A stretch of DNA of 47,609 bases from an uncultured Verrucomicrobiota bacterium (GCA_947169825.1 CAMVRE010000004.1:1-47609), one strand, 5' to 3'. Counted from the first letter of the stretch, positions 14,734 to 40,905 are shown. A program made the numbers and translations. The notes: generated from the sequence alone by a model not told the origin.

Positions 14734-14824
14734 CCCGGGGCGCTGTGGCAGTCTACCCCCCGTTCCGCGGGAATACGCCCGCGAAACGCCACCACGCCAC
14801 CCCCGAACAGAAAGGACAATCGCA

Positions 14825-18473: not shown

Positions 18474-21400
18474 TTACAAGACGTTTTTGATCCTGATCAA
18501 AAACTCTTTTTGGGCTTCCGGTGAAAGCGAATTGAACTGGGCGACGAGGAGGTCGACGCCGAGCGTGTCGTTGTGCTTGGCGAGGGCCTTTTCAATCGGG
18601 GCGAGTTTTGAGGCATCCTTCGGATTGAAGCAAGGAATGCGCCGAGCGAGTTCATTTTGCGCGGCAAGGGTTTCTTGCGGATTCAGCGCCGAAGGATCTG
18701 CATATTTCTCAAGCATCCGCGCGACCCAGGCCTTCGACTCCCGGTTGCGCATCTTTTCACAAGCGGCAACGAGTTGATCGAAAGTTTCCTGAGGATCCCA
18801 CGGAGGTTCGATTTCCGCGAACTTCTCGACAAAGTCGACTCGCGCCCTTTCCACACGTTCTCGGAACGTATCTTCGCTCGTTTCCAAATTGGACAGGGAG
18901 CCGGAAAGGGCGATGTAGTCATTCACCTCAAGACGGGCGTCGCGGAAGTCCGCCTGGTTCGTCGGGCTGCCCTCATAGAGTTGAATGACAGCTTCGATCT
19001 CGTCCAGAATATCCCGCGCCGTTTCCATCGATAGAGCCAGACCGAAGATTCTGCCAGCCCGACGATCCAATGATTGCCGGGTCTTGACCAGTTCGTCCTT
19101 GATGCCGTTCAAGGTCCTGTAGACCACTGCGATTTCGTCCGCGATGCCGGGATTGACCGTCCTCATCGAGGAGGCGCTCCTTTGAAGAACCTCGCGGTGC
19201 TGCTCACATTCCGACTTCCACGTGTCAAGCTGCGCACAGGATAGGTTCTGCGGCACCGACGAATGGGACTCCGCCCAAGCCTCGGCATCACGTTTGCGGG
19301 CCCGTGCGGATGAGATTGCGTCAAGGTGTTGGAGAGCGCGAACAACCTTCTTTTTGAGTTGTTCCTCCTCGTTGAAGAGTTCTAGATTGCGGAGACTCCG
19401 TCCCATTCGTTCATTCGCAATCTGTTTGTATGCCGCAATCGCATCCGGGGTGTCCCCTTCGGGGTTGAACGACTGCAGCCAGGCGGGGAACCAGGCGACA
19501 ACCCGCTGCCGGCTCTCCCGCAGTTCCTTTTCCAGTGGGGCGATGTCCAACTCCTTGTCCCACAGGTAAGACAGGTTGTTTCGTGATTTCAAATCATCAG
19601 TAAGAAGTGATGCGCCATACGCCAACTGGTACGTATCACCCCTTTGCGTAGCAACCATAATGCGGCTCATGTGATCGCTGACAGTTTTATCGGCGGCATC
19701 CATTTGTCGCTTGGCGTCGGCAATTCCCCGTTCGACATCCTGAACCCTGAATTTCAACGTGGGCGGGATGGACGGATGCGTCGCACGGAGGGCGTCGATT
19801 CGGTCCTTGAATGCGAGTTTCTCGCGATAGGAAATGCAGTCGGGCCAATCGTCGACGATCGTCTTCCACGGCGAATCGTCCCCGGAGACCGCCTTGACGA
19901 ACCGAACATCCCGGAAGTCCTTGGGGTCGATGGATGTACGATCAGGGAAGAGGGAGTCGAGCACATCGACATCGACGGCGTCGCCGTCCTTCATCACCTG
20001 AATGTCCCTGGTGTTCCGATGCGCCCGGAAAAACACGGCGAGAAGAAGTCCTGCCGAGGCGATGTTCGCACCATAGGGAGCGGCGCAGGCTCGTTCGAGA
20101 GCATCCACGACGGAGAGCCCTTCGTCCGAGAAGAGCGCCTTGCTCCATTCCTCCAGCAGCGACTTCACGGAGGCCGTCGCGCGCCGACTGGAAACGACGC
20201 CGTCCGTCGTGAAGACGGACCAGGAATCCCGAAGAACCGTCTGGGCTCGGTTCCGCTTCTGAACCCCCATCGCCTGAGTCGCATCGAAGCTGAAGTCGGT
20301 CAGGAAGAGCATACGTGTCAACTCCGCGCAGTCCTTCGACGCCTGAGACACTCCGCCCTTCGTCGTGAAACCGTCGAACGGGAACGGGATGATCTTCGGG
20401 AACATCTTTTCGAACACGGCGTCGCCGAACGCGCGCAGGCGGCGCGGCGCTTCGTCGAGCGATACGCCGGCGAAGAGATGCCGCTCCCGGATCGCGTCCC
20501 CGAGGGCCTGTTCCAACAGTTCCGTCTGTCCGTTCCGCTGCGCGGGAACAAGACGGTCGAACTGCTCCTTCTCCCGGGCTCCCAGCGTTTCCAGGAGGTC
20601 AAGTTGCACAAGCGGCTCGGAAATGCGGTGGTCCTTGTCGAAAAGAAGGACGAGCATAAACGGGACTTTCGCGCATTGGGCGCGAAGCATCCGTTGCGCC
20701 TCGTCACGGACTGCGGCTTCGTCCTCGTCATCCGGGACGAAACAGTACACGACGAATCCGCGCTTGTCCGACACAGATTGGTACCGGCTCCGCTCACGAA
20801 GTTCCGCAGCCAGATTGGAGACCGAGAGCCGGAACAGCTCCCACGTCGTGAATCTTGGCTCGAAGTCCCACTCGCGGGTCTGGATCTTCCGTTCGTTCCC
20901 GAAACCGCACGACAGGTTCTCGTTGATCATCTGGAGCGCCGGCGCCCTTCCGAGGAAGAGCCTAGCCCTCCGACCTTCGTCGTACTCCTCCGCCTTCTTG
21001 CGAAGATAGAGGCGGAACTGGGCCTTGGATCCGGTGTCGGCGAAGATCTCGAACCGGCGGAAAGACTCCTCCCACGCGATGACGTTCTTCTCCTTTTCGA
21101 GTTCCTCGAGGCACTCCTCGGCCTCGGCACGGTCCAATCCGGAAAAGACGGCGACGGCGGAAACCATATCGTTCCTATCGATCGCACGAAGTTTCGTCTG
21201 CTCGATCAGGACGAGAGCCCGAAGAACGGCCGTCTCCCCGCCCGAGAAGTGCTGGGCGTTTCGTTCGAAGACCGCATCGTACGACTGCACGATGACGCCG
21301 GACCCGCCGGAGGAGTTTTCCATCTCGACGAATTCGTCGTGGAGCGCCGCCGTCCAAAGCGCGACGGGCGGCAATGACGGATGGACATCATCGAGAATGT

Positions 21401-22742
21401 CGTCCGCGTGCGCGACAAGCGCCTCCTTGAGAAGGGAGAGGGCCGAACGCTGCTGCAGAAACCGGCCGCTGGAGGAAAGGTAGTAGAGAACCCACATTGC
21501 CTCCGGCGAGAGAGGCCAGCAGCCGGCTGCGATCTTGGCGAAGGAATCGGCATCCGCCCACGAGGAAGCGTTCTTGGCGGACTCGTACCATCCAAGGAGC
21601 CGTTTCTGCGAAGCGTCGGAATCCTTCGACGCCAGCTTCGGCGCCTTCGATTTGACGAGAAGGCTCGCGACCAGCGTCTCGAGGTTGCTGGACAGATAGT
21701 ATTTCTCCGCGGAATCGTAGCGCGTCACATAGCGGTTCGCCTCGTTCTGCCGCAAGCTGGCGAGCCGTTGGAGATAGGCCTTCAGCTCGAACTGGACGAA
21801 ACCGACGAAGGCGATGCAATCCGAATGGGTCTGGACGCCTTCGAAGAGATGCTGTAGGGCGCCGTCGCCGGCGACCTGCGGCTTGTTGGCGGCGAACTCG
21901 AGATAGTGGCCGAATTCGTCGAATAGGATCAGCAGCCGTGCATACGGCTTCCCGGTGCCGATGTATTCGGAAGCGACCTTCCCGAGGACATCCTTGACCG
22001 TTTCGTCTCCAATGGTCTGGATCGGCATCCCGATGGTTCGGAAGAACGTCTGCGCGCGGTCGTAGAGGGACTCGTCGAAGGAGAGAAGTCTGGTGCGGCA
22101 TTCGTCAAGGGAAGGGGCGCCCGCGTCCTTCACGAACGCGGCGGACAGAGCCGGCGAGAGATTCCCGAGCATCGTCGCCGCGATCTGGAATCGCCGGCGA
22201 AGGGACTCCAACGGTTCGATGGAATGGCCGTCCGCCGAGATCCGCTCCTTGAGCTGCGCGAGCAGCACGGACGCAAGATCGGCGTTGTTCATTCCGTTCA
22301 CGGTGAGCACGAGGACCGGACCGCCGATTTCCCGAACGGCCTCCTCGATGCGGCCGGCGAGACCGACGTCGGCCTTGGCGATGTTCCCGACGATCTCTTT
22401 CGCGGTCTTTCCTTCCGTGCCGGAAAACAGTTCCGACAATGTCACCGCAAGGTGCGACTTGCCGCTGCCGTAGCTCGCGATCGCAAGCGTGAAGGGACGC
22501 GAACCCGGATTGGCCAGATCCTCGGCGACATCCGCCACGAACGAGGCGGTGTCGATCAGGCGGTGGCCCGTCCCCTCCGCGACGGACGACGCGACTCCGT
22601 GCGTTCCGGGACCGTGGAACACGAACGATACGGCCGCGCGGGCCGCCTTGCCGGGATCGCTTCGAAGCCAGTCGACATCGACCGCGCCGTTGAACAGGCG
22701 GTCGATCTCGAAGCGGACGAGGTTGCCAAGCGTTTCGTTCAT
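18474..22742 (-). CDS. Large P-loop ATPase (1422 aa), SspC-like in its N-terminal NTPase core, partner of the second DUF4007-like protein
   Basis: Start MNETLGNLVRFEIDRLF; Walker A LAIASYGSGKSHLAVTL; Walker B LLILFDEFGHYLEFA (compare LTGPYGSGKSSFALFLF and GVLFLVDEFGRVFENA in the 36413-39730 product). Confidence 0.75.
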   Translation of the reverse strand: MNETLGNLVRFEIDRLFNGAVDVDWLRSDPGKAARAAVSFVFHGPGTHGVASSVAEGTGHRLIDTASFVADVAEDLANPGSRPFTLAIASYGSGKSHLAVTLSELFSGTEGKTAKEIVGNIAKADVGLAGRIEEAVREIGGPVLVLTVNGMNNADLASVLLAQLKERISADGHSIEPLESLRRRFQIAATMLGNLSPALSAAFVKDAGAPSLDECRTRLLSFDESLYDRAQTFFRTIGMPIQTIGDETVKDVLGKVASEYIGTGKPYARLLILFDEFGHYLEFAANKPQVAGDGALQHLFEGVQTHSDCIAFVGFVQFELKAYLQRLASLRQNEANRYVTRYDSAEKYYLSSNLETLVASLLVKSKAPKLASKDSDASQKRLLGWYESAKNASSWADADSFAKIAAGCWPLSPEAMWVLYYLSSSGRFLQQRSALSLLKEALVAHADDILDDVHPSLPPVALWTAALHDEFVEMENSSGGSGVIVQSYDAVFERNAQHFSGGETAVLRALVLIEQTKLRAIDRNDMVSAVAVFSGLDRAEAEECLEELEKEKNVIAWEESFRRFEIFADTGSKAQFRLYLRKKAEEYDEGRRARLFLGRAPALQMINENLSCGFGNERKIQTREWDFEPRFTTWELFRLSVSNLAAELRERSRYQSVSDKRGFVVYCFVPDDEDEAAVRDEAQRMLRAQCAKVPFMLVLLFDKDHRISEPLVQLDLLETLGAREKEQFDRLVPAQRNGQTELLEQALGDAIRERHLFAGVSLDEAPRRLRAFGDAVFEKMFPKIIPFPFDGFTTKGGVSQASKDCAELTRMLFLTDFSFDATQAMGVQKRNRAQTVLRDSWSVFTTDGVVSSRRATASVKSLLEEWSKALFSDEGLSVVDALERACAAPYGANIASAGLLLAVFFRAHRNTRDIQVMKDGDAVDVDVLDSLFPDRTSIDPKDFRDVRFVKAVSGDDSPWKTIVDDWPDCISYREKLAFKDRIDALRATHPSIPPTLKFRVQDVERGIADAKRQMDAADKTVSDHMSRIMVATQRGDTYQLAYGASLLTDDLKSRNNLSYLWDKELDIAPLEKELRESRQRVVAWFPAWLQSFNPEGDTPDAIAAYKQIANERMGRSLRNLELFNEEEQLKKKVVRALQHLDAISSARARKRDAEAWAESHSSVPQNLSCAQLDTWKSECEQHREVLQRSASSMRTVNPGIADEIAVVYRTLNGIKDELVKTRQSLDRRAGRIFGLALSMETARDILDEIEAVIQLYEGSPTNQADFRDARLEVNDYIALSGSLSNLETSEDTFRERVERARVDFVEKFAEIEPPWDPQETFDQLVAACEKMRNRESKAWVARMLEKYADPSALNPQETLAAQNELARRIPCFNPKDASKLAPIEKALAKHNDTLGVDLLVAQFNSLSPEAQKEFLIRIKNVL

Positions 22743-23599: not shown

Positions 23600-23602
23600 C
23601 GG

Positions 23603-26600
23603 TCAGAATCCCCGCTCTTCTAGCGTGGAGACGTTGATGAGGTTGACCCTGCCCTTCAGGGAGTCTCCTTCCGCGGCAGGGCCGATGGAGATGCATTGGC
23701 CTTTCTCCAACGAAGAAAGACGCGCCTTCCACTCTTCCGCCGTTCCGGACTGCGCCGCCGTTCTCACAAGTTCGGAATAGCGCTTCAGCTCCGAATCCGC
23801 CGGCTTGAAGAACAGCTTGTGCGCCGCCTGGAACAGGCGGGCCTTCTCGTCGTCCTTCAGATTGCTCAGCGTCTGCGTCGCCGCGATGAGGCAGAGCCCG
23901 AACTTCCGTCCTTCCGTCAGGAACTTCCCGAGCGGAGAATCGAGCTTCTGGTCGAGGTTCTGCACCTCGTCGAGAACGACGACGTGCGGCTTCGTCTCGT
24001 CCCAGGCGGTCCGTGCCGTGGAATAGAGATCCCAAAGGACGAACTCGGTGAGCAGGAGGTATGTCGTGCGGTCGAGAATCGTCATCTGGAACACCTGGCA
24101 GAGGCGCTCCGTGTCGGCGAAGAGTTCGTCCCAGCCGATGGATTCGCCCTCCCTGAACAGTTTCGCCGCCACAAAGGGCTTGAGCTTGCTGATGACGGAT
24201 TTGAGCGCCGGCTGCTGATGGACGCCGTCGTCAAGAAACGCCTCGAGCGCGGGTATCAGATCGGACATCCCGAACGCGGGGTTCGAGGACATCCCCGTCT
24301 GGATGGCGTCGATGAGCACGCTGCGCTGCTGGTCGCCAAGGTTGTAGACGGAGTCGAAGATCGACGTGACGCGAGTCGCGACATCCCACTCGGATTCTTC
24401 CAGCGTTCCTCCGCAGCCGTCGTCGTCGGTCCCCTTCCGGAAGGGGTTGATGGGAAGCCCGTCCCTCCGCACGATGTGCTGGAGGGGGTCGACGGACCCC
24501 ACGAAGGCCGGTTTCAGCTGCTTGTTCAGGAACCCGTTCGTGTAATCGACGATCAGACTGTTCTGCGTCTTTCGCGCAAGCTCCGCCAGAATGGTCTGGA
24601 TCGCATAGGTCTTTCCCGTTCCGGAATTTCCGAAAATGAGGAAGTGCCGGTTGTTGAGCTTCGGATGGCCGAATTCCCAGTAGACCTCCTTCCCGGCCTT
24701 GGTCCTTCCGAGAAGGATCCGATCGGGAATGGAACGGGGAGTCGGTCCATCGGCCGGGGCCGGGGCATTGTTCGGAGCGACCGGTGCCGGAGCGACGGGC
24801 GAAGGTTCGACCGCCGGAGGCTCATCGACCGCCGTTTCCGGGACGGGTGCGGATGTCCGCGTCGGCGGCGCCGGCTCGTCCGGCTGTGGAACGGTCGGAA
24901 TCGGCACGCCGGTTCCGTCCTCTTCGGGCGCCGGCTCGGGCACCGGCTCGTCGTCTTCGTCGAAGTCGAAGTCCTGCCTCTCGCCCTCGTCCTCCTCGTC
25001 CGACTCGTCGTCCTCGTCGAGGAGACGGTCCTCGCGGATGCCGTAGTCCGGCGCGGCGGAGTCGCCGGCAAGGTCGATGGCGTCCTTCCAGACGAGCTTC
25101 GGCTTCGCGGCGGGCTGGCAGACGGCGTCGACGAAGGCGTATCCCGACTGGAAGACCGGGACGTCCAGCGTGTCTCCGTTCTCGTCCGAGTCGATCGTCA
25201 GGGTCTCGAACCGCTCCAGCGCGGGGCCGCGGGTCTCGTCCGTCACGAACGTGTAGACGGCCGCGTCCCATTCGATCTCGAACCTGCCGTCCGCGAGGTT
25301 CTCCATCGCGCGAAGGAAGGAGTCCTTGTCCGCCGACGACGGAGCGGCGCTCGCGATCATCCGATGAAGCTGCAGATGCCAGTAGCGCTGGTCCGGACGC
25401 GCGGCCGCGGGATCGTTCCACGAAGGCGCGAAAAGAGGCCGCAGGACGCGAAGTCCGTTCTCGATCTGGGTCTTCGCCTTTTCGAGGTGTCCGTCCATGT
25501 TCTGCGACTTGCCCATCTTGCATTCGATGAGGCTGGCGTGCAGCTTCAGGACGTCCCCCTCGATGTCGGCCCGGAGCCAGAGCAGGTCGGGATGGCGGTT
25601 GTCGTCCGCCGCAAGGTCGAACCAGTGCCGGTAGGCGTCGATCGAGAAGAGCCGATCACACAGATGGGACTCCGGGTCGAGCGGAACGATCCGGTGCAGG
25701 ATGCCGTAGGCCAGGAAGTCGCGGACGTATTCGCCCGGCCCGAGGGCCCGGACGAGCGAGAGGCCGGAAAGCTCCTTCGCCTCGTCCAGCAGCGTCTGCG
25801 CGATGCGCGCGTCCCGGTCGGGCGATCCGTAGGGGAACACGCCGCGCATCGCCGAGAGGAGCCGGTCCTTCAGCTCCCCGAGCCGGTACTGCTGGGTCGA
25901 GACGGTGTAATTGCTTTCCCCGTGCTGGCCGACGCCGGAGCCGAAGCCGATGAGCTCCCGCCTGCGTCCGGCGCCGCCATCGTCCGCCTGCGCGATGAGC
26001 GCCCGGTCGATGAGCGGATCGACCGCGACGACCCACTCGGCCGCCTCGTGCGCTGCGTCGACCACGTCTCGCCAGGGTGTGTAGTCGCCGGTCGCCAGCA
26101 CGATGTGCCGGTCTCCCGCGTGGACGCCGGGATCCCTCACGCGCGCGGAGAGGTTCGCGTGGGCGTCCGCCGTCGTGAACTGGCGGTTGCTGACGATCTG
26201 CGAACGGCGGAACCGCTCGTTCGGCTTCGTGCTGGCGCACTGCGACTGCTCGAGGATCGGGAACTTGATCGAGTTCTTGGTCACGACATACTTCTCCGCC
26301 TTCTCGAAGACGCATCCCTGGTTGTCTCGGCGGATGAAGTCGTAGAGGACGAACACGTCCGCGTCCACGTCGGAGCGGATGGTCTTCGCGAGCTGGCGGA
26401 CGCCGTCGGCGCTCGGCCCGACGACCCGGTGCGACACCGAGAGGTCGCAGTCCGCGTAGGGGCCCGACGCGTCCTCCTTCGACTCGACGTAGTCCTGCCA
26501 CGCGGAGAGCCACTGCGCGACGACGCTCGTGTCGGACGACTCGGAGAACACGGTCAGCCGGATCGAATACCGCTCGATCCGGTTCTCGGGCGGGATCTCC

Positions 26601-29026: not shown

Positions 29027-30666
29027 TGGGCGGTCCTTTCTTCGGGCGCGAAGGGGTTGCGGACGAGGGAGCAGGCGTCGGAGAGCCGCACGAGCATCCC
29101 GGACGCCTCGAGCATCCGTTCGAGCCAGGCGTCGCCCGACTCCTCGCCCGCGAGCTCGTCGATCCGGCCCGACCAGTTGCGCGAGTCGGCCAGGCCCTTG
29201 AGGTCGAACACGAAGCCGTGGTGCGCCTTCATCCGCGCCTTGAACGTGTCGAGAGTCATCCGGCGCCCCGGCACGAGCGAAAGCACCAGGCACCGCAGGA
29301 TCTTCTCGTTGAGCGTGAACTTCATCGCGCCGCCGCGCGGCGGCACGATCAGCCCGATGCTCTTCCCGAGCTTGCGGAAGAGCTTGAAGCCGTACTTGTC
29401 CGCTTCCCCGTAGATGGACCGGAATCGGGTTGGAGAACCCGCGGCCGCCTCGCGAACCTTCTCCAGCAGGTCGGGCCGGCGCACCACCTGCTGGATTTCG
29501 CGGCTGATCTCCGAGAGGGACTGTTCCGAGAACGATTTCAGCTTCCGCTCCCCGCTCGCGGTGTCGCAAAGCAGGATGCGGTAGTCGGACCCGTCGGAGG
29601 GGCCGCCCGCCGTCGTCGTCTCGCGGTAGGTCTGCGAGGCGAGCGTGCGAAGAACCTGCAGCGCGCACTCGACTTCCAGCAGCTCGAGCTTGTCGATGAT
29701 CCCGATGTTCGCCGCGAGGATTCGGTTGAGCTCGACCGCGAAGAGATACCCCTCCGTCCAGCTTTTCTGCGGGATCCATCCGCAGGAGACGCTTCTCGGG
29801 TCTCCCCCGGGGAAGTCGGAAGCCCTTTGCGTCTCCTCGTCGGTCGACGTGTCGATGAACCGGATGACGTCCGCAAGCCCCTTCGGCGTCGCGTCGAAGA
29901 AGGCGTCGATGGCCTTCGAAAGTCCGTCCCTCAAAACGACGGGGTTCGCTTCGTCTGCGGTGAGGTCGACGCCGGGTCGCGAGCCGATTCCGCTCTCGAC
30001 CTCTTCTTTCGTCTGGGTCAGCGCATTGCAGATTTGAAGATAGAGCGACTCGCCGCTTCTGGCAAGAAATCGGTGTTTGCTTGAATCAAAGAGAGTGGAG
30101 AAGTTTTCCAGAACTTCTCCCCAGTCTGTCGGATCGACAGACCGCGCCTCGGTTGTGTTCCAGATCTCTTCGCCGCAGAGCAGTTCCCGGCAAAAGGGAA
30201 GGAAAGTCTGGGCACACCAGGTCCGGCTGGCGCCGTTGCCCCAGAATCCCAGAAACAGAGCGCTCAAGGTCTTGAGGAAGGCGCTCTTCTCCGCCGGCGT
30301 ATCGAGGTCGAGACCGTCGGCGAGGTCTTTCCAAAGCCGTTCCGCGTGCTTGCGATGGCTGCGGTGGCGGGTGTCCAACCGGGAAGATTCCAGGAAGGCG
30401 AAGAGCTTGAGGTTCAATCGCGCCTTCGGGAAGTAGGAGAGTCCGGCCGGTTTTGTACGCCAGTCACGGAGCGTCGCATCGTTCGGAAAGACCGTCGAAA
30501 ATTGGTCATTGTATAACTGCTTTCCAGACGCGCAGACAAGAAGAAACTCGGCCAGCATATCCATCGTCTGCTGGTCTTCTGAGAACCGCCGTCCGAAAAG
30601 ACGGATGGCGGGATTAGAATCCTCGCTGCTTTGCGGTTGGTAGATTTCAGAGGGGAAACTAATCAT
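29023..30666 (-). CDS. dptG: DptG/SspG-like protein
   Basis: 547 aa; located between DptF-like and DptH-like ORFs with overlapping start/stops; C-terminal wHTH-like region. Assignment mainly positional. Confidence 0.6.
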   Translation of the reverse strand: MISFPSEIYQPQSSEDSNPAIRLFGRRFSEDQQTMDMLAEFLLVCASGKQLYNDQFSTVFPNDATLRDWRTKPAGLSYFPKARLNLKLFAFLESSRLDTRHRSHRKHAERLWKDLADGLDLDTPAEKSAFLKTLSALFLGFWGNGASRTWCAQTFLPFCRELLCGEEIWNTTEARSVDPTDWGEVLENFSTLFDSSKHRFLARSGESLYLQICNALTQTKEEVESGIGSRPGVDLTADEANPVVLRDGLSKAIDAFFDATPKGLADVIRFIDTSTDEETQRASDFPGGDPRSVSCGWIPQKSWTEGYLFAVELNRILAANIGIIDKLELLEVECALQVLRTLASQTYRETTTAGGPSDGSDYRILLCDTASGERKLKSFSEQSLSEISREIQQVVRRPDLLEKVREAAAGSPTRFRSIYGEADKYGFKLFRKLGKSIGLIVPPRGGAMKFTLNEKILRCLVLSLVPGRRMTLDTFKARMKAHHGFVFDLKGLADSRNWSGRIDELAGEESGDAWLERMLEASGMLVRLSDACSLVRNPFAPEERTAQ

Positions 30667-32890
30667 TGATCACCTCCAGTGCGTTCGCGCCGTCGCTCGG
30701 CTTGACGGAAACGGTGGAAAGGCTCCCGTCCGTCTGTCGTCGTAGCAGGACAAGGCCCTGCACGTCTCCCGAACGGATGGTCGCCAGGATTCGCGCCTTC
30801 AGGTCTTCGAGCCGGTCGCGGTAGGAGCGTTGCAGTCCGCGCCCCAGCTCTCCCTTGTTCCGCGCCGTCAGGTAGTCGAGGAACGGAAGCGGAAGATCCA
30901 GCCGGATGCCGTCCAGCCTTCCGATGCCGCAGAGCGCAGGCGTTCCGTCGACGAGCCGGATCTCGAAGTGGTCGTGGAAATCGAACTTCGAGAGGACCAG
31001 CTGGACGCTCTGGCGGATGTCGCCGCCGCGCCGGCCCAGGGTGATGTAGAGCGTTCCCGCCTTGCCCGTTCCCTCCGGCGGACGCATCCCGGAGAACTCT
31101 TCCTGCAGGACGCAGTAGATCGGAACGGCGAGGATCCTGGCCTTGAAGCTCGAAGGATCGTCCCGCCATCCCTGGACGTCGAGGATCCGGGGGGAGTCCA
31201 GGAACGCCGAAAGGAACGCGGGGAAGCCGTCGTCCCCCTCGGGGGCGGGCGAGCCGAGGAAGAAGGCGAGCCGCCTGTATTGCCGGCGCGCCAGGGCGGC
31301 GTCCCGGCCGGGGAGCGCCGCCTTCTTTCCGCCGCGGATCCGCCTTTCCAGGTCGGCGAGCGTCGCGTCCGTCTCCGCAAGCGGGGTGTGGCCTCCGAAG
31401 TTCCAGAACGCGCGCTCCTCGCGGGGCGAGTAGCGCGCGTCGAAGCGCTGCTCCCGCATCGCGGACACGGCGTGGAGCTGTCGCACCGCCTGCGGAATGT
31501 CCTTCTCGCCGTCGTCGCCCCAGAAAAGGTTCGTGAAGAGGTGTCTTTCGGGACGGATCTCCGCGCCGGAGGCGACACGCGCCGCCATCTCGCGGCAGGT
31601 CGCGCCGCCCGTGAGGAGGAAGGAGAAATGGGCGGCCATCTGCCGCATCGTGAGCCGCTCGCCGTAGGCGTAGGCGCGGAAGTAGAGCAGCCGGATGCGC
31701 CGGGATGCGAGGGCGAAGTGGCGTTCGAGGAGGTTGCGGTTCGCTAGCAGCGGGCAGCGGCCCGAGGCGGGGCATTCGCCGCATCGGTCCCATTGCGGCG
31801 AACGGACCATCCGTTCGAGCATCCGCAGCCCGATGTCGAGGTTGTCCTTCCGGGCGAGGTTGTGGACGGCGAAGGAGACGTGGCCGAACGGGAACGTGCG
31901 CCGGACGTCGGAATCCATCGCGCCGAGCAGACGGTCCTCGACGGTTGCGACGTTCTCCCCTGCCCGGCCGCAGTTGCTCTGGAAGAGGGAGAGGAGAGGC
32001 CCGGTGTTCGAGACGATCAGGAACCGCTCGCCCGACCCCGGCCGGAACAGGTCGTCGGCGAGCTTCCCGCGCTCGTCCTCCTTGCATTCGCTCAGATCCT
32101 TGACGACCGAAACGGTCCTTTCCCCGCAGGAGATGATCTCGCGCTTCTTCAGTCCGTCCTTGAGGGGATCGTCCGGGGGAAGCTTGCGCAGGGCCCGGAT
32201 CACCTCCAGCGCGAGGGTCGACTTGCCGTCGCCCGCGTGTCCCGTGAGGATGACGTTTCCTCCGTTTTCGCCGGTCAGTTCGGCGAGAATCTCTTGGGCG
32301 AGAGGATGGGGGACGCGAAGCTCCTTGAAAAGCGGGTTCTTGGCCTGCGATTCGGCAAGAGACCCCTTGTTGTTCGCGTCGGTTCCTTGAAGGGTGTTGA
32401 GGTAGGCGACAAATGGGTTTTCCATTTGCGATCCTCCGTTTGTTTGATGAGACGAAAGACGTTGTTCGGCGATCCGTTGGAAGGCAAGATTGAGTTCGCG
32501 GTCGTTGCGCATATCATACAGCACCCCTTCAAGAAGGGCACCCTTGACGAGCCTGTTCAGGTCGCCGGGCCCACCAATGGTCGTAGCTGCTTCAAGCGCT
32601 TGCTCCTGCCCTTCGTTGGGAATTAAACTCCACACGCCGGATGTGCGTAGATGGAAAAAGGGATTGTAGGGGCGGTTTCTATCACCATCTGCCCTAAACC
32701 GATCAAATAGGGTTTTGAACTCGTTGACAAGTTCCGGGCAGTAATAAACTATGGGGTCTTCAAGTTCTCCCCTGTAGCGAAGGCGAGCCCAGGCGAGAAG
32801 CAACAGCAACTTATGCGGCTTGTGCTGCGTTCCGGAAGGAAGCAACGAGTCTACAAGCTCTTCGATTTTCGCTTGGTTCTCGGGGGTCAT
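30659..32890 (-). CDS. dptF: DptF/SspF-like ATPase with N-terminal putative sulfur-binding (ScoMcrA SBD-like) domain
   Basis: 743 aa; DptF core from MENPFVAYLNTLQGTDANNKGSLAESQ...NVILTGHAGDGKSTLALEVIRAL; N-term HKPHKLLLLLAWARLRYRGE...RPYNPFFHLRTSGVWSLI. Confidence 0.75.
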   Translation of the reverse strand: MTPENQAKIEELVDSLLPSGTQHKPHKLLLLLAWARLRYRGELEDPIVYYCPELVNEFKTLFDRFRADGDRNRPYNPFFHLRTSGVWSLIPNEGQEQALEAATTIGGPGDLNRLVKGALLEGVLYDMRNDRELNLAFQRIAEQRLSSHQTNGGSQMENPFVAYLNTLQGTDANNKGSLAESQAKNPLFKELRVPHPLAQEILAELTGENGGNVILTGHAGDGKSTLALEVIRALRKLPPDDPLKDGLKKREIISCGERTVSVVKDLSECKEDERGKLADDLFRPGSGERFLIVSNTGPLLSLFQSNCGRAGENVATVEDRLLGAMDSDVRRTFPFGHVSFAVHNLARKDNLDIGLRMLERMVRSPQWDRCGECPASGRCPLLANRNLLERHFALASRRIRLLYFRAYAYGERLTMRQMAAHFSFLLTGGATCREMAARVASGAEIRPERHLFTNLFWGDDGEKDIPQAVRQLHAVSAMREQRFDARYSPREERAFWNFGGHTPLAETDATLADLERRIRGGKKAALPGRDAALARRQYRRLAFFLGSPAPEGDDGFPAFLSAFLDSPRILDVQGWRDDPSSFKARILAVPIYCVLQEEFSGMRPPEGTGKAGTLYITLGRRGGDIRQSVQLVLSKFDFHDHFEIRLVDGTPALCGIGRLDGIRLDLPLPFLDYLTARNKGELGRGLQRSYRDRLEDLKARILATIRSGDVQGLVLLRRQTDGSLSTVSVKPSDGANALEVIND

Positions 32891-34029
32891 TTTAAGGCGT
32901 CCTTTGCGGCACGGAGAGCATTAAGAAACGATTGGAGTTCCGTCTCCAAGGTTGACACCGAAGTTGAAACACGAATGCAGTTACGAGCCTTGTCCCTGGA
33001 AAGTCCCATCGCTTGAAGCACGTAAGAAGGATCGATGGCTCCCGTGTTACAAGCCGAACCATTGCTCACACAGAAAAGGGGCAGACTGTCCATTAGAATA
33101 TCCGATGGCACTCCCGGGATGAAAAGATTCGTCGTGTTCGGCAACCGCTCCGCGCCCGCGCCGTTCACTCGGCTGCCCGGAATGGCAACGAGCGCGGCGG
33201 TTTCGAAAGCGTCGCGCATCGCCTTCATCCGGGCAAGGGCGGATGCGTCGGGCAGAAGCTCCATCGCCCTGCCGAGACCGACGATGCCGGGCACGTTGTG
33301 CGTCCCGGGACGGACGCCGCACTCCTGTCCGCCGCCCGCGAGCGGCATCGGGAACGGGAAGCGGTTCGCGCCGGCGCGCAGGAAGAGGAACCCGGCGCCC
33401 TTCGGGCCGTGGATCTTGTGGGCGCTGAACGCGGCGGAGTCCACGCCGAGGTCCGCAAGGGAGAACGGCATCTTGCCGAGCGCCTGCACGGCGTCGCAGT
33501 GGAAGAAGGCGCCGGCCTCGTGCGCCAGTTCCGCCAGTTCGCGGACGGGCTGGACGACGCCGGTCTCGTTGTTCGCGAGCTGCACGGAGACGAGGCCCGT
33601 TCCGGGCCGGATCGCCTCGCGCGCGGCGGCAAGGTCCACCACGCCGTCCTGCGTCACGGGAAGCAGCGCGACCTCGAACCCGAAGGACTCGAGCCGCCTG
33701 GCGGCGTTGAGGACGGACTTGTGCTCGATGGCGGACACCGCCACGCGCCGCGCCGCGGACTTCGAATCGGCGAACGCCTGGAAGATCCAGTTGTTCCCCT
33801 CCGTCGCGCCCGAGGTGAAGAAAACCTGACCGGGGTCGGCGCCGAGGGCGCCCGAGACGGCCGCGCGGGCGGACTCCACCGCACGGCGGGCGAGCCGGCC
33901 CGCGAAGTGTGCGCTCTCGGCGTTGCCGAACGCGGCGCCCCAATACGGCTCCATCGCCGCGACGACCTCCGGGGCGCAGGCGGTGGTCGCGTTGTTGTCG
34001 AGGTAGACGAGGCCCTCGGGAATCCTCAC
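32887..34029 (-). CDS. dndA: Cysteine desulfurase (DndA/SspA/IscS-like)
   Basis: GTG start (VRIPEGLVYLDNNATT) overlapping the upstream stop (GTGA); FSAHKIHGPKGAGFLFLR (PLP Lys), SNGSACNTGAIDPSYVL (catalytic Cys). Confidence 0.92.
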   Translation of the reverse strand: MRIPEGLVYLDNNATTACAPEVVAAMEPYWGAAFGNAESAHFAGRLARRAVESARAAVSGALGADPGQVFFTSGATEGNNWIFQAFADSKSAARRVAVSAIEHKSVLNAARRLESFGFEVALLPVTQDGVVDLAAAREAIRPGTGLVSVQLANNETGVVQPVRELAELAHEAGAFFHCDAVQALGKMPFSLADLGVDSAAFSAHKIHGPKGAGFLFLRAGANRFPFPMPLAGGGQECGVRPGTHNVPGIVGLGRAMELLPDASALARMKAMRDAFETAALVAIPGSRVNGAGAERLPNTTNLFIPGVPSDILMDSLPLFCVSNGSACNTGAIDPSYVLQAMGLSRDKARNCIRVSTSVSTLETELQSFLNALRAAKDALK

Positions 34030-34847
34030 AGATGGCACATCAGACACGCCTGGTCTCCCATATCGTCGCCCGCGAAAACATCCTTCAGGGAAAGGTTCGC
34101 CGCGCTCTTCGGCTTCGCCGCCTGCTTCCTGGCGAACTGCTCCTTGATTTCCGCGACGCGCTCGGGGCGCTGGAGTTCTTCCAGACTTTCCCCCTGGCAC
34201 CAGGTGAAGCGTTCCCCCGTGAGCGGATCGGCTTTCTCGTATTCCATCGCTTTCTTGAACAGGTCGGGATGTCGTTCAAGCAGGCCGACCCATTCAATTC
34301 GTTGCTGGAAGAAACAGAAGTAGCAACCGGAGCGCGAACGCCAGTCGTAGTAAGTGGGAACGCCAAGACCAGAATCTTCAAGAATTTTGAACACATCCGC
34401 TTTGCGGATGTTGTGCTCGATGAAGGGAAAAACCGCCTTGATGTTCGGCTTTGTCGAGATGTATCCCGTTCGATAGGGTTCGTCCGCACGGATTCCAACA
34501 TAACTGATGACATTGTCGTTCCCGATGTACTCCTCGTAGGGAATCAGTTTCAGATACTGCGTGCACCACCGCGACTGCTGGGAAGGAAGAAACCCTCTCT
34601 TGAGTTTAAGAATCTCGTCGAAACCATAGCCCGCCTTGTATTTAAGCGTCTTGATTGGTTTCCCGAGATACTGGCTCAGCCGTTGCATGTACTCGTAGGT
34701 TTCGTCCAGTTCCTTTTCCGTGTCGCAGAACACATATTCCATCTCGGGAACCTTGTCCTTCATAAACACGGCAAGGGCGGAGGAGTCCTTGCCCCCGGAA
34801 AGGGCGAGGATGTGGCGGACGGGCTTGTCGGAAAGCGGCGCGTTCAC
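34026..34847 (-). CDS. sspD: Phosphoadenosine-phosphosulfate-reductase-family protein, SspD/DndC-like
   Basis: GTG start after AAAGGAG; ILALSGGKDSSALAVF PP-loop; SRSGCYFCFFQQRIEW and C-terminal CLMC. Confidence 0.85.
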   Translation of the reverse strand: MNAPLSDKPVRHILALSGGKDSSALAVFMKDKVPEMEYVFCDTEKELDETYEYMQRLSQYLGKPIKTLKYKAGYGFDEILKLKRGFLPSQQSRWCTQYLKLIPYEEYIGNDNVISYVGIRADEPYRTGYISTKPNIKAVFPFIEHNIRKADVFKILEDSGLGVPTYYDWRSRSGCYFCFFQQRIEWVGLLERHPDLFKKAMEYEKADPLTGERFTWCQGESLEELQRPERVAEIKEQFARKQAAKPKSAANLSLKDVFAGDDMGDQACLMCHL

Positions 34848-36292
34848 GTGCGTGTCTCCTTTGGTTGCATAACCTTCCACGTGCCATGCGCGCGGCCGCC
34901 TTCGCGGACGAGCAGACCGGCGGCCTTGAGATTGCGGATGTGTTCGGCGACAACCGACCTCGCTTTCCCCAGTCGTTCGGCCAGCATGGTCATCGTTCCG
35001 CTTGGATTGTTTTCCAGAAATGCGAGAATGGCCTTGTCCAATTCGCTCTTTAGTCCGGCTGTTAGTCCGGTTGTTGGTCCGGATGTTAGTCCGGGGTATT
35101 GTGAAGACCGCCCGGGCACGTGATTGTCGTCGAGGGGGATCGTCACCTTGAACTGGTCCTCCTCGTCGAGGACGGGATCGGCGCCGGAATAGAGCCGGAC
35201 GTAGCGGAAGAGGTTGCGGGTTCCGGAACCGAGCTCGTCGGCGTTGCCGATCTGCTTGAAGAACGACGCGAGAATCGGATTCTTCGGGACGGGCTGGACG
35301 TTCTCCGGCGTGATGAGGCCGTGAAAGGCGGCGCGGTTGGCGTTGTCCGCCCAGAGCCGATCCTTCTCGATCACGAGCCGGGCCGGCTTGGAACTGGAAT
35401 ACTCGCGGTGCACGAGACTGTTGGAGACGACTTCGCGGAGAATCTTGCCGCGGAGACTGACGCGGTTCGGACCGTCGAGCCAGAACTTGTCGGGCAGGTG
35501 CTTCTCGCCGAAGGCCATCAGACGGGAGAACGCCTCGACGAGATTGGTGCAGACGGTGTCGCGGTCGTCGTAGCGGTCGACGTCGACGCGGCGGAGGAGG
35601 GCGTCCGTGCGGTAGGCGGGAAAGACGTCGAGGATGGTGTCGTCCTTGCCGAAGAGCAGGACTCCCGCCGCGTTGAAGCCCTCCTTGCCCGTGGCGGCGT
35701 CGCGCCCGAATAGGCGGGCGCTCTTGAAGAACGCATCGGCGCCGAGCTTCCGCCAGGGATGGTCGGGACGGAAGGTCGCGGCCATTTCCTTCGCGACGGG
35801 CACGAGGTCGAGCCGCAGATCGGATTTGCGGATGCCGGGATAGACGCGGCGCTCCGTGTAGATCTCCTGCTTGCGGATGTAGAGCTGGGCGATCGCCTCG
35901 GTTTCGCGGACGCGGACGTCCGCCTCGTGGAAGCGGTCGAAGACGACGCCCTTGAAGCGGTGGACGTCCGCGCTCGGGGGAACGCGGACGTGGACGACGT
36001 TCCGGCCGCCGACCTTGAACGACTCGGGCTGGAGGTAGAACGGCGGGTCCATCAGCCCGGGATCGCCGGCGACCTTCACGACGTGCCGCATCGTCGGTTC
36101 GACCGCGCCGGCCGGCACGCCGACGACCGTCCCGTCGTCTTCGACGCCGAGAAAGAGGTCGCCGCCGAAGCGGTTCAGGAACGCGCAAATCGACTCGAAC
36201 GTGTCCGACTGCGCGCCGTTGCCGCCGCGCTTGAACTCGATGCCGACGTTTTCGCCCAACTGGCGGAAGTGTTCGAAATCCCGTGCCGTCAT
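34844..36292 (-). CDS. AlbA_2 (Schlafen-type) domain protein with HATPase_c_4-like and C-terminal winged-helix region
   Basis: ENVGIEFKRGG...FLNRFGGDLFLGVEDDGTVVGV; REVVSNSLVHREYS; C-terminal MTMLAERLGKARSVVAEHIRNLKAAGLLVREGG. Confidence 0.85.
   Translation of the reverse strand: MTARDFEHFRQLGENVGIEFKRGGNGAQSDTFESICAFLNRFGGDLFLGVEDDGTVVGVPAGAVEPTMRHVVKVAGDPGLMDPPFYLQPESFKVGGRNVVHVRVPPSADVHRFKGVVFDRFHEADVRVRETEAIAQLYIRKQEIYTERRVYPGIRKSDLRLDLVPVAKEMAATFRPDHPWRKLGADAFFKSARLFGRDAATGKEGFNAAGVLLFGKDDTILDVFPAYRTDALLRRVDVDRYDDRDTVCTNLVEAFSRLMAFGEKHLPDKFWLDGPNRVSLRGKILREVVSNSLVHREYSSSKPARLVIEKDRLWADNANRAAFHGLITPENVQPVPKNPILASFFKQIGNADELGSGTRNLFRYVRLYSGADPVLDEEDQFKVTIPLDDNHVPGRSSQYPGLTSGPTTGLTAGLKSELDKAILAFLENNPSGTMTMLAERLGKARSVVAEHIRNLKAAGLLVREGGRAHGTWKVMQPKETRT
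35050..35094. repeat. 12-bp coding tandem repeat (~3.75 copies)
   Basis: ttagtccggctg ttagtccggttg ttggtccggatg ttagtccgg; encodes GLTS-GPTT-GLTA-GL on the minus strand. Confidence 0.85.
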
Positions 36293-36412
36293 CGCAGCGT
36301 CCTTTCCGGTTCACTCCCGTTCCATCCGTCGCCCGATCCGTGACGCGGCGCGTCACGAATCGGGGCGAAGGGTTCGCTGTTCTTCCGGGGCGTTTCGTTC
36401 ATGGATGGCATT

Positions 36413-39400
36413 CTATCCTTTCCCGTCGAGTTCGGCGAGCGCACGCAGGAGCGCGGCGCGGAAGGCGGCGGAGCCGGTCTTCTTCGCCTTCGCGGACGAA
36501 CGGATGGCGGCCAGAAGCGAATCCGCGGCCTTCTGTTCTCCGGCCGACAGCAGGACGGTTCCGTCGAAGGGCTTCCAGGCGGCGCGGAAGCGTTCGGCGA
36601 GACCGGCGACGCTCCGCCCGAATTCCTCGATCTGCAGCGGACCCCACTTGTCCATCGGCGACTGCTGGAGGTAGGCCATGACCTGCGAGGCCTTGGTCCG
36701 GTCTCCGTCGGTATTCTTGACATTCTGGAGGAAGGGCACGAGGTCGGAGGCGCCGACGCGGGCGAGAAGGAAGCAGCAGCGGTCGTAGAGCAGGCGCCAG
36801 CCCTCCTCCGAATCGTCGAAGCCGAACGCTTCGAGAAGTTTCTTCCGGCTGTCGGCGATGAGCGTCGGGAGCGCGCTGCCGAGTTCGCGGAGGCAGCCGT
36901 TGAGGTCCTCGAAGTAACGGTCGAGCTGGCGTTTGTCGAGACGGGTCGCATCGATGTCGCCGATTCCGAAGACGTCCGGCAGGGAGCGGAAGAGGAGGAC
37001 TTCGGGCGAGCGGGCTTCTTCGAACGCCTTCCGGAACGCCTTGGCGCGGTCGGAAACGGAATCCGTTTCCCTGGCGTATTTCGAAAGGGAGTTGCGAAGG
37101 CCGTAGAGTTTGCGGACGACGGGCATCACGGTTTCACTCGGGGCTCCGAGACCGGCGGCGAGCCGCTTCACGATGGCGGCACGGGTTCCGGAAACCTTCA
37201 TTCCTGAAAGGGCGAAGAGCTCGGGGCGACGGACCAGCAATTCGAAAAGGGCATCGGTCGGCTCCGGCTGGAAGGTCCCCTCGGAATACAGGAAGACCTC
37301 GTCCCGGTTGACGAGGTAGAACGCGATGACGACAACCGGCAGGAGTCCGTCGAGCATTCCGTAGGGCGGTCGGCGGAGCTCGTCGTAGATTTCCTTGACC
37401 GTGACGGGCCTTTCGCGCGAAGCGAAGACGATGCTTTCGAGTTTTTTCCACACGGGAAGGAGATTCGTCGGGGCGTTGGCGGCGGGAGCGACGAGCCGCC
37501 AAATGCCGTCGGCGCCTTCGATGTGCATTCCTGAAGCGAGGATGACGGCCTCGTAGATGCTCCGTTCGGGCGGGTATCCCTCGATGCCGAGGCGCTTGAG
37601 CTTGCGCGTTTCCGGATCGTTGAGGCGCTTCACGAGGGCGTTGCGCGCCGACGCGGCCTGTGAGGACGGTACGCGGCGGTTCACAAGCTCATTCCGGACG
37701 CGCGGCGATTCCGAGTAGAGCAGGTCACACCGTTCGGAAAGCAGCCGCGTCAGGTCCTTCCCGGAGCGAACGCCCGTCTGCCGTTCGCCGCCGCAGGCGA
37801 ACACGCACTCGACGCCGTGCGGCGAGGGTTTCGGATCGAGGAGGCCGAATTGGCGGAGCATCACGCTTTGCGTCGCCTCCGCCAGGCGGACCGAGATCTC
37901 GCGGCTCGCGATCCTGTCGTCGCGCAGCGCCTTTTCGGTGTCCTCGATCCAATGCAGGCGGCGGACTTCCTTGAGCGCTTCGCGCAGATCCCCGCACTCG
38001 CGGGGCACGGCGAAAAGCAGGGACGGATCGCCGGCGGAAAGCCGCTTCGCCTCTTCCAGGAACGTGTCGACTTCGCTGCGCCGCTCCGGCAGGCAGACGA
38101 CCAGCAGCCCGGACGCGGTTCCGCGATCCTGGCGGGAGACCTGTTCCAAGTCCGCCGGCCTGTCGGCGTAGCAGGTCTTGAAGAATCGAAGCGAACCCGT
38201 CTCGAAACTGTGCCGTTTGGCGACGATCGGTTCGGGGGGAAGGAACTTCCCGAGCGTTTCGGCAAGCGAAAACCCCGTTTTCCCAAGTTCGGCGTCCGCG
38301 CGTTTTTCGCAATCTTCCAGATCGACGTCGCTTCCGTTCCAGAGAGCGAACGTCTCGTTGAATTTCCGGTAGACCACGATGGACCGGCGCTTCAGTTTTT
38401 CGAGGCTCTCGTCGATTCGGGCGGGATGGAGCGCGAGGGAAACAAGCGGTTTCGTCGCGCGAAGCGGGCATTGCGTGCCGAGCGAGGAGAGCAGCGCGAT
38501 GGTTTTCAGCGTGTCGCGGTCCTCGTCGGAGAGGTCGTCCTTGGAGGAAAGGACCTCGTTCGCCTCGAGAAACGCCTGCCCGAACGGATTGCGGCTGAGC
38601 TGCGCCTCGAAGTTGGTGAAGAGGTAGTCGTAGAGGTCGCGAAGGCAGACCCGTTCGACGGGATCGTCGCCCGAACACAGGGCAAGAAGGCTTTTCGGCT
38701 CGTTGCCGGCGAGATAGGAAAACACAGATCGCTCGTTCTGCCCGAGGCGCCGAAACAGAACCGGCAGGGCGGCGAGGGCAAGGGGGTGCAACGGGTGCGA
38801 GGCCCGCGCGTATTCCGCGAACTCCTCGTCGGAAAGGCCGACTTGCCGCGGAACGCCGAGACGAACCGCTTCCGTGAGGATTTTAGCGTCGGCGGCGGAA
38901 AGGGGGTCTCGAGAACGGATGGCGGAGGCGACGAGCTGGATCTGTGAAGCCGTCGTCTCCGAGAAGACGATCGGATCAAACCGCCCCTCGATTTTGCTGA
39001 ACTCCCGACGAAGGGAAGGATCGGACGCCGCATAGTCGCCGACGCCTTGATGGAGAACGCCCATCAGGGCCAGCCCCGTTTCCCCGCCGCGCGATGCCGC
39101 TTCCGCGAGATCCTGGAGGACGGAAACGTCCGTTTCGCCCGGGCGAAGCCGGGCATTTTCGAACACGCGGCCGAATTCGTCAACGAGAAAGAGGACGCCG
39201 GCGTGACCCGCCTTGCGGAAATCCTTCGCGATTTCTTCGACAAGGCGCAGGACGTCGCGGGCGTCGCGGGCCGCGCGCAACTGGGAGGAAAGCGCGAAGA
39301 CGCTCCGGGGCGTCTTGCCGGAATGGGAATCGACGGCGTCGGCCAGCAATTCCGGAACGGACTGTCTCGACGCCGCCGTGGCCACGAGGCAGGCGTATCC

Positions 39401-39730
39401 TTCGGGAAACCGTTTCGGCCAGACGGTGGTGCGGAATTCGTCCGCCAGCGGCGGATCCGCCTTGCGAAGAAGGTTCCACGCCGATCCGTTCCGGTTCCGG
39501 AGCAGATGGAACAGGAACAGCGCGAACGAAGACTTGCCGGAACCGTAGGGGCCGGTCAGCGTGAAGGCCCGGTCGTTCCTAGATCCGGAAAGGCCTTGTC
39601 CGAGACGGGCGAGGGCCTGTCGGACGGACGCGGTGACGACATACCCTTCCAGTCCGGAATCGGACTGCCGGTCCCGCACGAGATTCGCCGAACGGAGAAA
39701 GCGGCGGGTGATGGACAGCGCTCTTTTCAT
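36413..39730 (-). CDS. sspC: SspC-like ATPase (1105 aa)
   Basis: Walker A FTLTGPYGSGKSSFALFLF, Walker B GVLFLVDEFGRVFENA; directly after the DUF4007 gene with 4-nt ATGA overlap. Confidence 0.75.
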   Translation of the reverse strand: MKRALSITRRFLRSANLVRDRQSDSGLEGYVVTASVRQALARLGQGLSGSRNDRAFTLTGPYGSGKSSFALFLFHLLRNRNGSAWNLLRKADPPLADEFRTTVWPKRFPEGYACLVATAASRQSVPELLADAVDSHSGKTPRSVFALSSQLRAARDARDVLRLVEEIAKDFRKAGHAGVLFLVDEFGRVFENARLRPGETDVSVLQDLAEAASRGGETGLALMGVLHQGVGDYAASDPSLRREFSKIEGRFDPIVFSETTASQIQLVASAIRSRDPLSAADAKILTEAVRLGVPRQVGLSDEEFAEYARASHPLHPLALAALPVLFRRLGQNERSVFSYLAGNEPKSLLALCSGDDPVERVCLRDLYDYLFTNFEAQLSRNPFGQAFLEANEVLSSKDDLSDEDRDTLKTIALLSSLGTQCPLRATKPLVSLALHPARIDESLEKLKRRSIVVYRKFNETFALWNGSDVDLEDCEKRADAELGKTGFSLAETLGKFLPPEPIVAKRHSFETGSLRFFKTCYADRPADLEQVSRQDRGTASGLLVVCLPERRSEVDTFLEEAKRLSAGDPSLLFAVPRECGDLREALKEVRRLHWIEDTEKALRDDRIASREISVRLAEATQSVMLRQFGLLDPKPSPHGVECVFACGGERQTGVRSGKDLTRLLSERCDLLYSESPRVRNELVNRRVPSSQAASARNALVKRLNDPETRKLKRLGIEGYPPERSIYEAVILASGMHIEGADGIWRLVAPAANAPTNLLPVWKKLESIVFASRERPVTVKEIYDELRRPPYGMLDGLLPVVVIAFYLVNRDEVFLYSEGTFQPEPTDALFELLVRRPELFALSGMKVSGTRAAIVKRLAAGLGAPSETVMPVVRKLYGLRNSLSKYARETDSVSDRAKAFRKAFEEARSPEVLLFRSLPDVFGIGDIDATRLDKRQLDRYFEDLNGCLRELGSALPTLIADSRKKLLEAFGFDDSEEGWRLLYDRCCFLLARVGASDLVPFLQNVKNTDGDRTKASQVMAYLQQSPMDKWGPLQIEEFGRSVAGLAERFRAAWKPFDGTVLLSAGEQKAADSLLAAIRSSAKAKKTGSAAFRAALLRALAELDGKG

Positions 39731-40704
39731 CGCCGGGCTCCTTCCGCATAATGGCTTCGGAGAAAACCGTCGGCGTCTCTCCGCAGTTTCAACCGGTCTC
39801 CTTTGTATTGCACCGTGTTCAGTCCTGCGGTGTCCGAATAGGAGAGCTTGGCTCCTCGCCGGTCTCCGAGTTCGAGAACGGCGTCGACGAGAGCTCCCTG
39901 GTCCAGTTTGAAAACCTGGCCCGGAGACTTCGGGTCGAACAGGAGGCGGGAGAGGGAAACGCTCAATTCCCCTCCGATCGACTCCATGTACCGGAGAATG
40001 GCGTAGCCGACCAGTTCGTTTGGAAGGTTGCTCTTCTTGCCGATGTTGAACCGGTAAAGTCCCGGATCGCTCGTCGGTTGCAAGAGCCGCAACGCAAGGA
40101 AGGGTGAATCGAAAGACTCTTCCCCGCCTTTGCCCTTCGCACCGGAGTAGGTTCGGACGAAACAGTCCACGTCCCGCTCCAACGTCGTTTCCGAAACCGA
40201 GGTCCCGAGATCCGCAAGTCTTCTTGCGATGAAGGCTTCAGCATCCTCCTTGCGAAACTCCGGCTTGTTGTAGAAGTTGAGCATCATGCTCCATGTGGAA
40301 AGAGGCGCGTCGACCGCCATCTGGTAGTGCAGAAGCCAGAGCGAGGCATCGTCTTCGAGGAACGGGTCGACGCCGGGAGCGTCTCCATCCCCGAATAGGA
40401 ATCGTCCGAGTTGGGCGAGCCGCATCGTGCCGGGCTGGTCCGCGTCTTCGATCAAACCGGTCTGGAGGCACCAGTACTTGATGCTTTCGACCATGTTCTT
40501 TCCGACGCCCAGCCGGACCACGGCATCGTCGGCGAGAAAACCGCCTGGATCGGCCTGAACGAGCCGGACTCCTTTTTCGAGCCACCCGTTGCGGGCGACG
40601 AAGGTTTGATGCCCGGAGAACCGCAACCTGTCCGGTTTCTTGGGTGGTTTGTCGCGAAGGACGGAAGTCCGGTTTTTCGAGGATGGACTATTCTTTTCAG
40701 CCAT
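39727..40704 (-). CDS. sspB: SspB-like DUF4007 protein
   Basis: Start MAEKNSPSSKNRTSV; DUF4007 signature RLRFSGHQTFVARNGWLEKGV...VGKNMVESIKYWCLQTGLIED. Confidence 0.8.
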   Translation of the reverse strand: MAEKNSPSSKNRTSVLRDKPPKKPDRLRFSGHQTFVARNGWLEKGVRLVQADPGGFLADDAVVRLGVGKNMVESIKYWCLQTGLIEDADQPGTMRLAQLGRFLFGDGDAPGVDPFLEDDASLWLLHYQMAVDAPLSTWSMMLNFYNKPEFRKEDAEAFIARRLADLGTSVSETTLERDVDCFVRTYSGAKGKGGEESFDSPFLALRLLQPTSDPGLYRFNIGKKSNLPNELVGYAILRYMESIGGELSVSLSRLLFDPKSPGQVFKLDQGALVDAVLELGDRRGAKLSYSDTAGLNTVQYKGDRLKLRRDADGFLRSHYAEGARR

Positions 40705-40905
40705 GGTGGGAATCAGGGGCGACACGTTCCCCCGGGGATAGACCCGGTGTGTCGCGAACGAGCCGTAGTATACCCGAAAGCCGCTCTTGTTTCCAACCAA
40801 AATTCTCGCAACTGCCGCCATCTTCAGTTCTCTGTGATGTCGCTGCGGAAGACCGCCGAATGCGTTGATCGGAAGAGATTCCAGAAAGGGCGTCGGAATG
40901 CTTGG

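Follow-up and report, generated by a model that had tools for sequence, protein, structure and literature searches.

The SspABCD-SspFGH system joins a phosphorothioate (PT) modification module to a restriction module. On the modification side, SspB binds DNA and is a reported nickase, SspC is an AAA+ ATPase, and SspD and SspA supply the sulfur (PMC8092258, PMC9240713, PMC12707154). The canonical restriction module, SspFGH, consists of three genes, each of them required; it attacks DNA that lacks PT and is toxic in cells without PT. The host is spared by the restriction complex even though only about 10-15% of motif sites bear sulfur (PMC8092258). Orc/Cdc6-type ATPases of this kind have been proposed to encircle and scan DNA with a triple-wHTH partner (PMC10853773), and other defence loci repeatedly place such ATPases and SspB/DndG-like wHTH proteins next to a HerA translocase (PMC10853773, PMC12839542). 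Methylation and restriction in BREX are reportedly both under the control of BrxC (PMC13326643).

The window analysed here is a stretch of 47,609 nucleotides from a Verrucomicrobiota MAG. Ten genes occupy positions 18474-40821 on the minus strand, in the order sspB-sspC-AlbA_2-sspD-sspA-F-G-H-B2-C2 (Table 1). This is the order given in the initial annotation, which had described a PT defence operon with a second SspB/SspC-like pair, here called B2 and C2, at its restriction end. The annotation had set the limit of the operon at 40704; that position is an internal ATG of SspB1 and its likely start, whereas the open reading frame itself opens at 40821. SspA probably also starts inside its open reading frame, since homology begins only near 34005. 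The genes F through C2 are packed as in one operon, with overlaps of 4-8 nt, a 3-nt gap 5' of B2, and a 1-nt overlap between B2 and C2.

Table 1. Genes of the ten-gene operon, in transcription order, and neighbouring genes in the window.
Gene	Assignment	Coordinates	Strand	Evidence
SspB1	Canonical DUF4007/SspB DNA-binding protein (reported nickase)	39727..40821	-	PF13182 258 bits; PADLOC SspB 2.5e-75; PDB 6juf (SspB) 6e-32
SspC1	ORC/Cdc6-type AAA+ ATPase of the modification module	36413..39730	-	PADLOC SspC 6e-271
AlbA_2	AlbA_2 (Schlafen-type) plus wHTH, putative regulator	34844..36292	-	PF04326 6e-11; HTH_24 2e-7
SspD	PAPS-reductase-like sulfur-transfer enzyme	34026..34847	-	PADLOC SspD 1e-110; PF01507 3e-9
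SspA	Cysteine desulfurase	32887..34200	-	PADLOC SspA 8e-120; Aminotran_5 2e-65
F	SspF-like P-loop protein with N-terminal sulfur-binding domain (SBD)	30659..32890	-	PADLOC SspF 4e-27; SBD 8h0l 1.7e-13; NF045808 3e-7
G	SspG-like protein	29023..30666	-	PADLOC SspG 1.6e-18, C-terminal part
H	SspH/DndH-like; PD-(D/E)xK nuclease and C-terminal HerA/FtsK translocase	23603..29026	-	DndH 8e-51 (HerA region), SspH 2.5e-19 (PADLOC)
B2	Diverged DUF4007/SspB-fold protein, 285 aa	22742..23599	-	PF13182 27.5 bits; SspB 1.7e-6; profile-profile; AlphaFold
C2	SspC-type AAA+ ATPase, 1422 aa, helical C-terminal extension	18474..22742	-	SspC 2.7e-16; C1 profile alignment; Walker motifs
KAP	KAP P-loop NTPase, PADLOC candidate PDC-S20; directly upstream of the operon	40906..42453	-	PF07693 6e-37; PDC-S20 7.5e-86
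HAD	HAD-family protein, PADLOC candidate defence family PDC-S34; directly downstream of C2	17273..18433	-	PDC-S34 7.6e-151
ORF6N	ORF6N-domain protein, close to the operon region on its left side	14441..15784		ORF6N 1.4e-32
OloA-like	Weak PADLOC match to OloA	10202..11164		OloA 5e-6

The first five genes support what the initial annotation had claimed for them: SspB, SspC, SspD and a cysteine desulfurase stand in one operon as an SspABCD-type PT modification module. The AlbA_2 gene among them was not found at the same position in other loci in the neighbourhood comparison. F, G and H are diverged homologs of SspF, SspG and SspH beside SspBCD, in agreement with their reading as SspFGH-type restriction genes. 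The nuclease motif of H (PDL at residues 1146-1148, ECK at 1168-1170) and its motor motifs are conserved in 27 relatives. Residues ~1430-1807 of H, the HerA part, are nearer to DndH and the rest is SspH-like, which agrees with the exchange of HerA domains described for DndH. As for neighbouring genes, the weak OloA match may represent another piece of a defence island, and the ORF6N domain is common in phages and mobile elements.

The SBD of F spans residues ~1-150, is similar to a solved SBD structure (8h0l), and coincides with the stretch covered by the NCBI model for PT-DNA restriction, NF045808. The sulfur pocket of ScoMcrA comprises H116, R117 (K in most homologs), Y164 and P165 (PMC6224610); H26, K27 and P77 of F align with it. 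Of 25 F proteins with a visible N-terminus, 22 have the domain, every one of them with PHK or PHR, whereas all four canonical F proteins compared lack it. In several F proteins from Desulfobacterota and some from elsewhere, the SBD is followed by NERD nuclease and protein kinase domains, and in one F protein these domains replace it. Fusions of wHTH, NERD and kinase domains to DndF are known, and the SBD has been equated with the wHTH (PMC10853773). The SBD type of fusion is already known, then, and what appears new is its near-constant presence in this lineage of F. Near a canonical SspABCD-FGH locus, a gene of its own (L062, 7113-8411) encodes a 432-aa protein, part of which resembles an SBD.

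Taken by itself, the match of B2 to PF13182 is borderline (27.5 bits against a cut-off of 27, positions 63-136 only), but it is upheld by comparison with the SspB1 profile and by the predicted fold. Profile-profile alignment of B2 with SspB1 extends over 200 columns (prob 93.6, E 2e-7), and B2 also matches the SspB profile (Table 1). An AlphaFold2 model built from 33 sequences (pLDDT 91, pTM 0.90) finds its sole convincing matches in the PDB among the SspB crystal structures, 6juf and 6lb9 (E ~1e-8, 1.2e-8 for 6juf; TM 0.72), while the next unrelated structure reaches a TM of 0.21. The 285-aa protein is thus related to DUF4007, as had been claimed. An HxTF motif is common to B2 and SspB1; other motifs that SspB1 conserves, RDVDC and SPGQ among several, are lost in B2, and many conserved positions differ. 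A relationship of B2 to G, which is also a triple-wHTH protein, was considered and rejected on a negative profile comparison (prob 0.2%).

C2 aligns with the profile of C1 over 729 columns, corresponding to C2 residues 63-923 (hhalign prob 99, E 6e-18). It is an SspC relative and not a stand-alone BrxC, its match to SspC standing against a best BrxC match of 0.005. Walker A (GYGTGKSH) and Walker B (FDEFG) motifs are conserved in 26 relatives, and the YGSGKS and DEFG motifs noted in the initial annotation lie where it had placed them, intact and conserved in the family. The last ~500 residues are mostly helical and correspond to nothing in the SspC1 alignment. The idea that this tail conceals an effector domain was considered and rejected, as its AlphaFold model (pLDDT 88, pTM 0.54) consists almost entirely of long helices and matches nothing in the PDB at E 0.001. 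No solved relative of SspC1 or C2 was found by sequence, and neither B2 nor C2 contains a known nuclease or sulfur-transfer domain.

A search with B2 as query turned up five further carriers among 390 Verrucomicrobiota genomes, with identical gene order in all five. A scan of 85,462 species, represented by one genome each, found 33 B2 loci, four of which coincide with the five Verrucomicrobiota finds. The 33 loci carry the labels Verrucomicrobia, Lentisphaerae, Kiritimatiellae, Bacillota, Deltaproteobacteria/Desulfobacteria, Spirochaeta, Sumerlaeota, Atribacteria, Chloroflexi, Acidobacteria, Bacteroidota, Cloacimonadota and Chlorobi. All come from uncultured organisms (MAGs or environmental assembly), which may explain why surveys based on isolates missed the layout. 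Including loci found with G as bait, this survey of neighborhoods in which a DUF4007 gene lies beside FGH-like genes brings the total to ~38 genomes with the layout. Because the same order is repeated in so many genomes, the operon is far beyond chance, and a chimeric assembly or one-off insertion is ruled out. Some of the survey loci carry frameshifts, possibly errors.

The association of B2C2 with this lineage of FGH is strict. In all 37 loci where the region is visible, B2C2 comes immediately or almost immediately after H; H lies 5' of B2 in 32 of the 33 loci from the species scan, and the remaining one starts too near the contig end. In every one of the 21 loci that extend far enough upstream, F is preceded on its contig by SspB1-C1-D. 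With G as an independent bait, B2C2 accompanied 6/6 strong matches in Verrucomicrobiota and 4/4 in Desulfobacterota, the latter four with the full set, and none of these ten loci had FGH of this lineage without B2C2. B2C2 with SspBCD but without FGH of this lineage was never found in the samples tested; SspBCD is frequently present without B2C2. Among 380 Verrucomicrobiota genomes, a second DUF4007 gene occurred only in those with this layout. A second SspD or SspA was found beside B2C2 in no locus. Carriage of B2C2 on mobile elements was considered and rejected, there being no match in viral contigs, PLSDB plasmids or phages.

Individual loci depart from the common form. Two have a pair of extra genes between H and B2 (L041, 8158-9983; L045, 4649-6441), encoding in L041 an AAA_21 (AbiEii/OLD-like) ATPase and a DUF4276 protein; the open reading frames in L045 are of like size and place. 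In genome G006 (L014, 2227-10090), B2 is frameshifted and C2 is split by two DDE_Tnp_1 (IS4-like) transposase genes, and the open reading frames of F, G, H and most of B1, C1 and D remain open, a natural knock-out of the second pair.

The canonical loci sampled for contrast number four, from two Sphingomonas plasmids and two Verrucomicrobiota genomes; these have SspBCD, A, F, G and H and one SspB/SspC pair. Their F, G and H proteins score only 20-72 bits against profiles of the lineage linked to B2C2, which suggests, from these sequence scores, that the latter is a separate lineage and not a canonical set with two genes recently added. No description of a second SspB/SspC pair was found in the open-access literature. 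As far as tested, against the three-gene SspFGH (PMC8092258) and the four one-pair canonical loci, the second pair falls outside the described Ssp and Dnd layouts, as the initial annotation had held, and the layout is a real subtype of SspABCD-SspFGH, apparently not described before.

Trees and rate-corrected distances for 20 loci separate three blocks, B1-C1-D, G-H and B2-C2. The rate-corrected link is 0.75-0.96 within blocks and 0.34-0.57 between them, and each block rejects the trees of the others. B2C2 is linked about equally to B1C1D (0.34-0.49) and to GH (0.37-0.46). Raw distances from 13 loci had indicated inheritance of B2C2 with FGH (B2-H 0.68, B2-C1 0.26; partial Mantel p 0.001), a signal overturned by the trees and rate-corrected distances and dropped because it is mostly shared evolutionary rate and the three block topologies disagree. 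In their rates of evolution, B2 and C2 covary more strongly with G and H (row-mean r 0.61-0.93) than with B1, C1 and D (0.31-0.49; 0.31-0.34 for D). The three cassettes re-assort, yet all are always present and in the same order, which is strong evidence of joint function; on which side B2C2 serves, the cassette data are weaker evidence. Genomes G406 and G414 share 74-82% in B1C1D and 83-86% in B2C2 but 45-48% in G and H, a pattern also compatible with a need for B2C2 to be matched to the modification module.

On balance we favor, with a confidence somewhat above even, a restriction side built as a five-subunit machine of F, G, H, B2 and C2, in which B2C2 acts as scanner or loader. The obligate link of B2C2 to FGH, the lack of second sulfur enzymes, and the covariation of rates argue for this side. 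SspA, SspD, SspC1 and SspB1 would place sulfur marks on host DNA. B2, with its triple-winged-helix SspB fold, and C2, an AAA+ ATPase, would form a second unit for scanning and loading on DNA, the restriction-side counterpart of SspB-SspC, and would bring FGH to DNA sites. The SBD of F would check for the sulfur mark; at unmarked DNA, the HerA motor of H would translocate and its PD-ExK nuclease would cut. A bound mark would accordingly restrain cutting and not trigger it, and the two tasks of marking and restriction would be divided, in this subtype, between the two pairs. We suggest more tentatively, and with rather less than even confidence, that marking and cutting each have their own SspB-SspC scanner reading the same sites, with the cutter gated by sulfur sensing through the SBD. 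Against the restriction machine stand the gene trees, which do not show B2C2 inherited with FGH, and the canonical SspFGH, which functions without a second pair (PMC8092258). The evidence is computational throughout, and both the function of B2C2 and its contact with FGH are putative. The layout also shows that the SspB-SspC pair was duplicated and has become established on the restriction side in many phyla. With a scanner pair of its own and an integral sulfur reader on that side, such a subtype makes the question of self and non-self answerable by gene deletions.

The initial annotation had offered three ideas for the second pair: a nicking or restriction engine, a modification unit with a different motif, and a host-protection switch. 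It had not noted the SBD of F, the strict pairing of B2C2 with this lineage of FGH, or how widely the layout is distributed. An engine on the restriction side is the most likely of these, and the switch is also kept. As a licensing switch, B2C2 would read PT or unmodified motifs, hold FGH inactive on host DNA, and release it on an invader. A switch that has to be matched to the mark is compatible with the tree data, as the sharing of B1C1D and B2C2, and not of FGH, between G406 and G414 illustrates, and also with the strict co-occurrence of B2C2 and FGH. Cells without PT suffer toxicity from unrestrained SspFGH (PMC8092258), and BrxC of BREX, a relative, has been described as balancing idling and restricting states (PMC13326643). 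However, B2C2 is broken in G006 with the FGH reading frames open, and loss of a brake with a live nuclease should be lethal, an argument from one MAG, in which FGH may be silent. We regard the switch as unlikely, though more probable than the readings that follow.

It seems improbable that the pair is a second nuclease, with B2 a putative nickase of the SspB kind that, with C2 as its motor, would attack invading DNA alongside FGH. SspB itself is a reported nickase (PMC8092258, PMC9240713), and B2 retains the SspB fold and the HxTF motif; but many positions conserved in SspB1 differ in B2, and H already has an intact PD-ExK nuclease. The different-motif modification unit is the least likely of the three earlier ideas, since no second SspD or SspA occurs beside B2C2 in any locus, and we give it very little weight. 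B2C2 would be an extra target selector that shares SspD/SspA and directs PT to another motif; its homology to the pair that selects PT sites is in keeping with this, and a single SspD could serve two pairs. Yet B2C2 never accompanies SspBCD in the absence of its own FGH lineage in the samples tested, its rates follow GH and not D, and the RDVDC and SPGQ motifs of SspB1 are among those missing from B2. That two independent defence systems lie side by side by chance is scarcely credible, despite the disagreement among the gene trees of the three cassettes, given an order fixed in ~38 genomes of many phyla, FGH of this lineage and B2C2 never seen apart (B2C2 on its own in 0/37 loci), and genes that overlap across the H-B2-C2 boundaries.

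Among known systems, SspABCD-SspFGH of the Vibrio anguillarum FF-93 type (PMC8092258) is similar in having SspB, C, D and A for PT, a P-loop F, and an FtsK/HerA-type H; it differs as a cassette of exactly three restriction genes with one SspB/SspC pair, whereas here the second pair is always present, after H, and F usually has an SBD. DndFGH/DptFGH (PMC10853773) likewise has a three-protein restriction core, with an H ending in a HerA/FtsK region, to which that of the present H is nearest, and with N-terminal fusions on DndF (wHTH, NERD, kinases) that those of F resemble. The partner here, however, is SspBCD, upstream in 21/21 loci, and not DndBCDE, and no second AAA+/DUF4007 pair is described in that work. 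Type 4 BREX (BrxP, BrxC, PglZ, BrxL; PMC12839542) shares DUF4007, a BrxC/SspC-type ATPase and a PAPS reductase; the operon instead has FGH and two DUF4007/ATPase pairs, and no protein in it matched PglZ or BrxL in PADLOC at E 0.01. The capture systems anchored on HerA/FtsK, of which a BREX-related one contains DUF4007, a DUF6079 ATPase, HerA, PglZ and STAND, similarly combine a HerA translocase and a nuclease with an Orc/Cdc6-type ATPase and a wHTH protein resembling SspB/DUF4007 (PMC10853773, PMC12839542); the present pair, without PglZ, STAND or TGT, is set in a complete PT restriction-modification operon. Finally, ScoMcrA and other SBD nucleases (PMC6224610) have the same PHK/R and P pocket residues, but in those enzymes PT triggers cutting and the fusion partner of the SBD is HNH; in the present operon its partner is SspF, and the nuclease is a separate protein.
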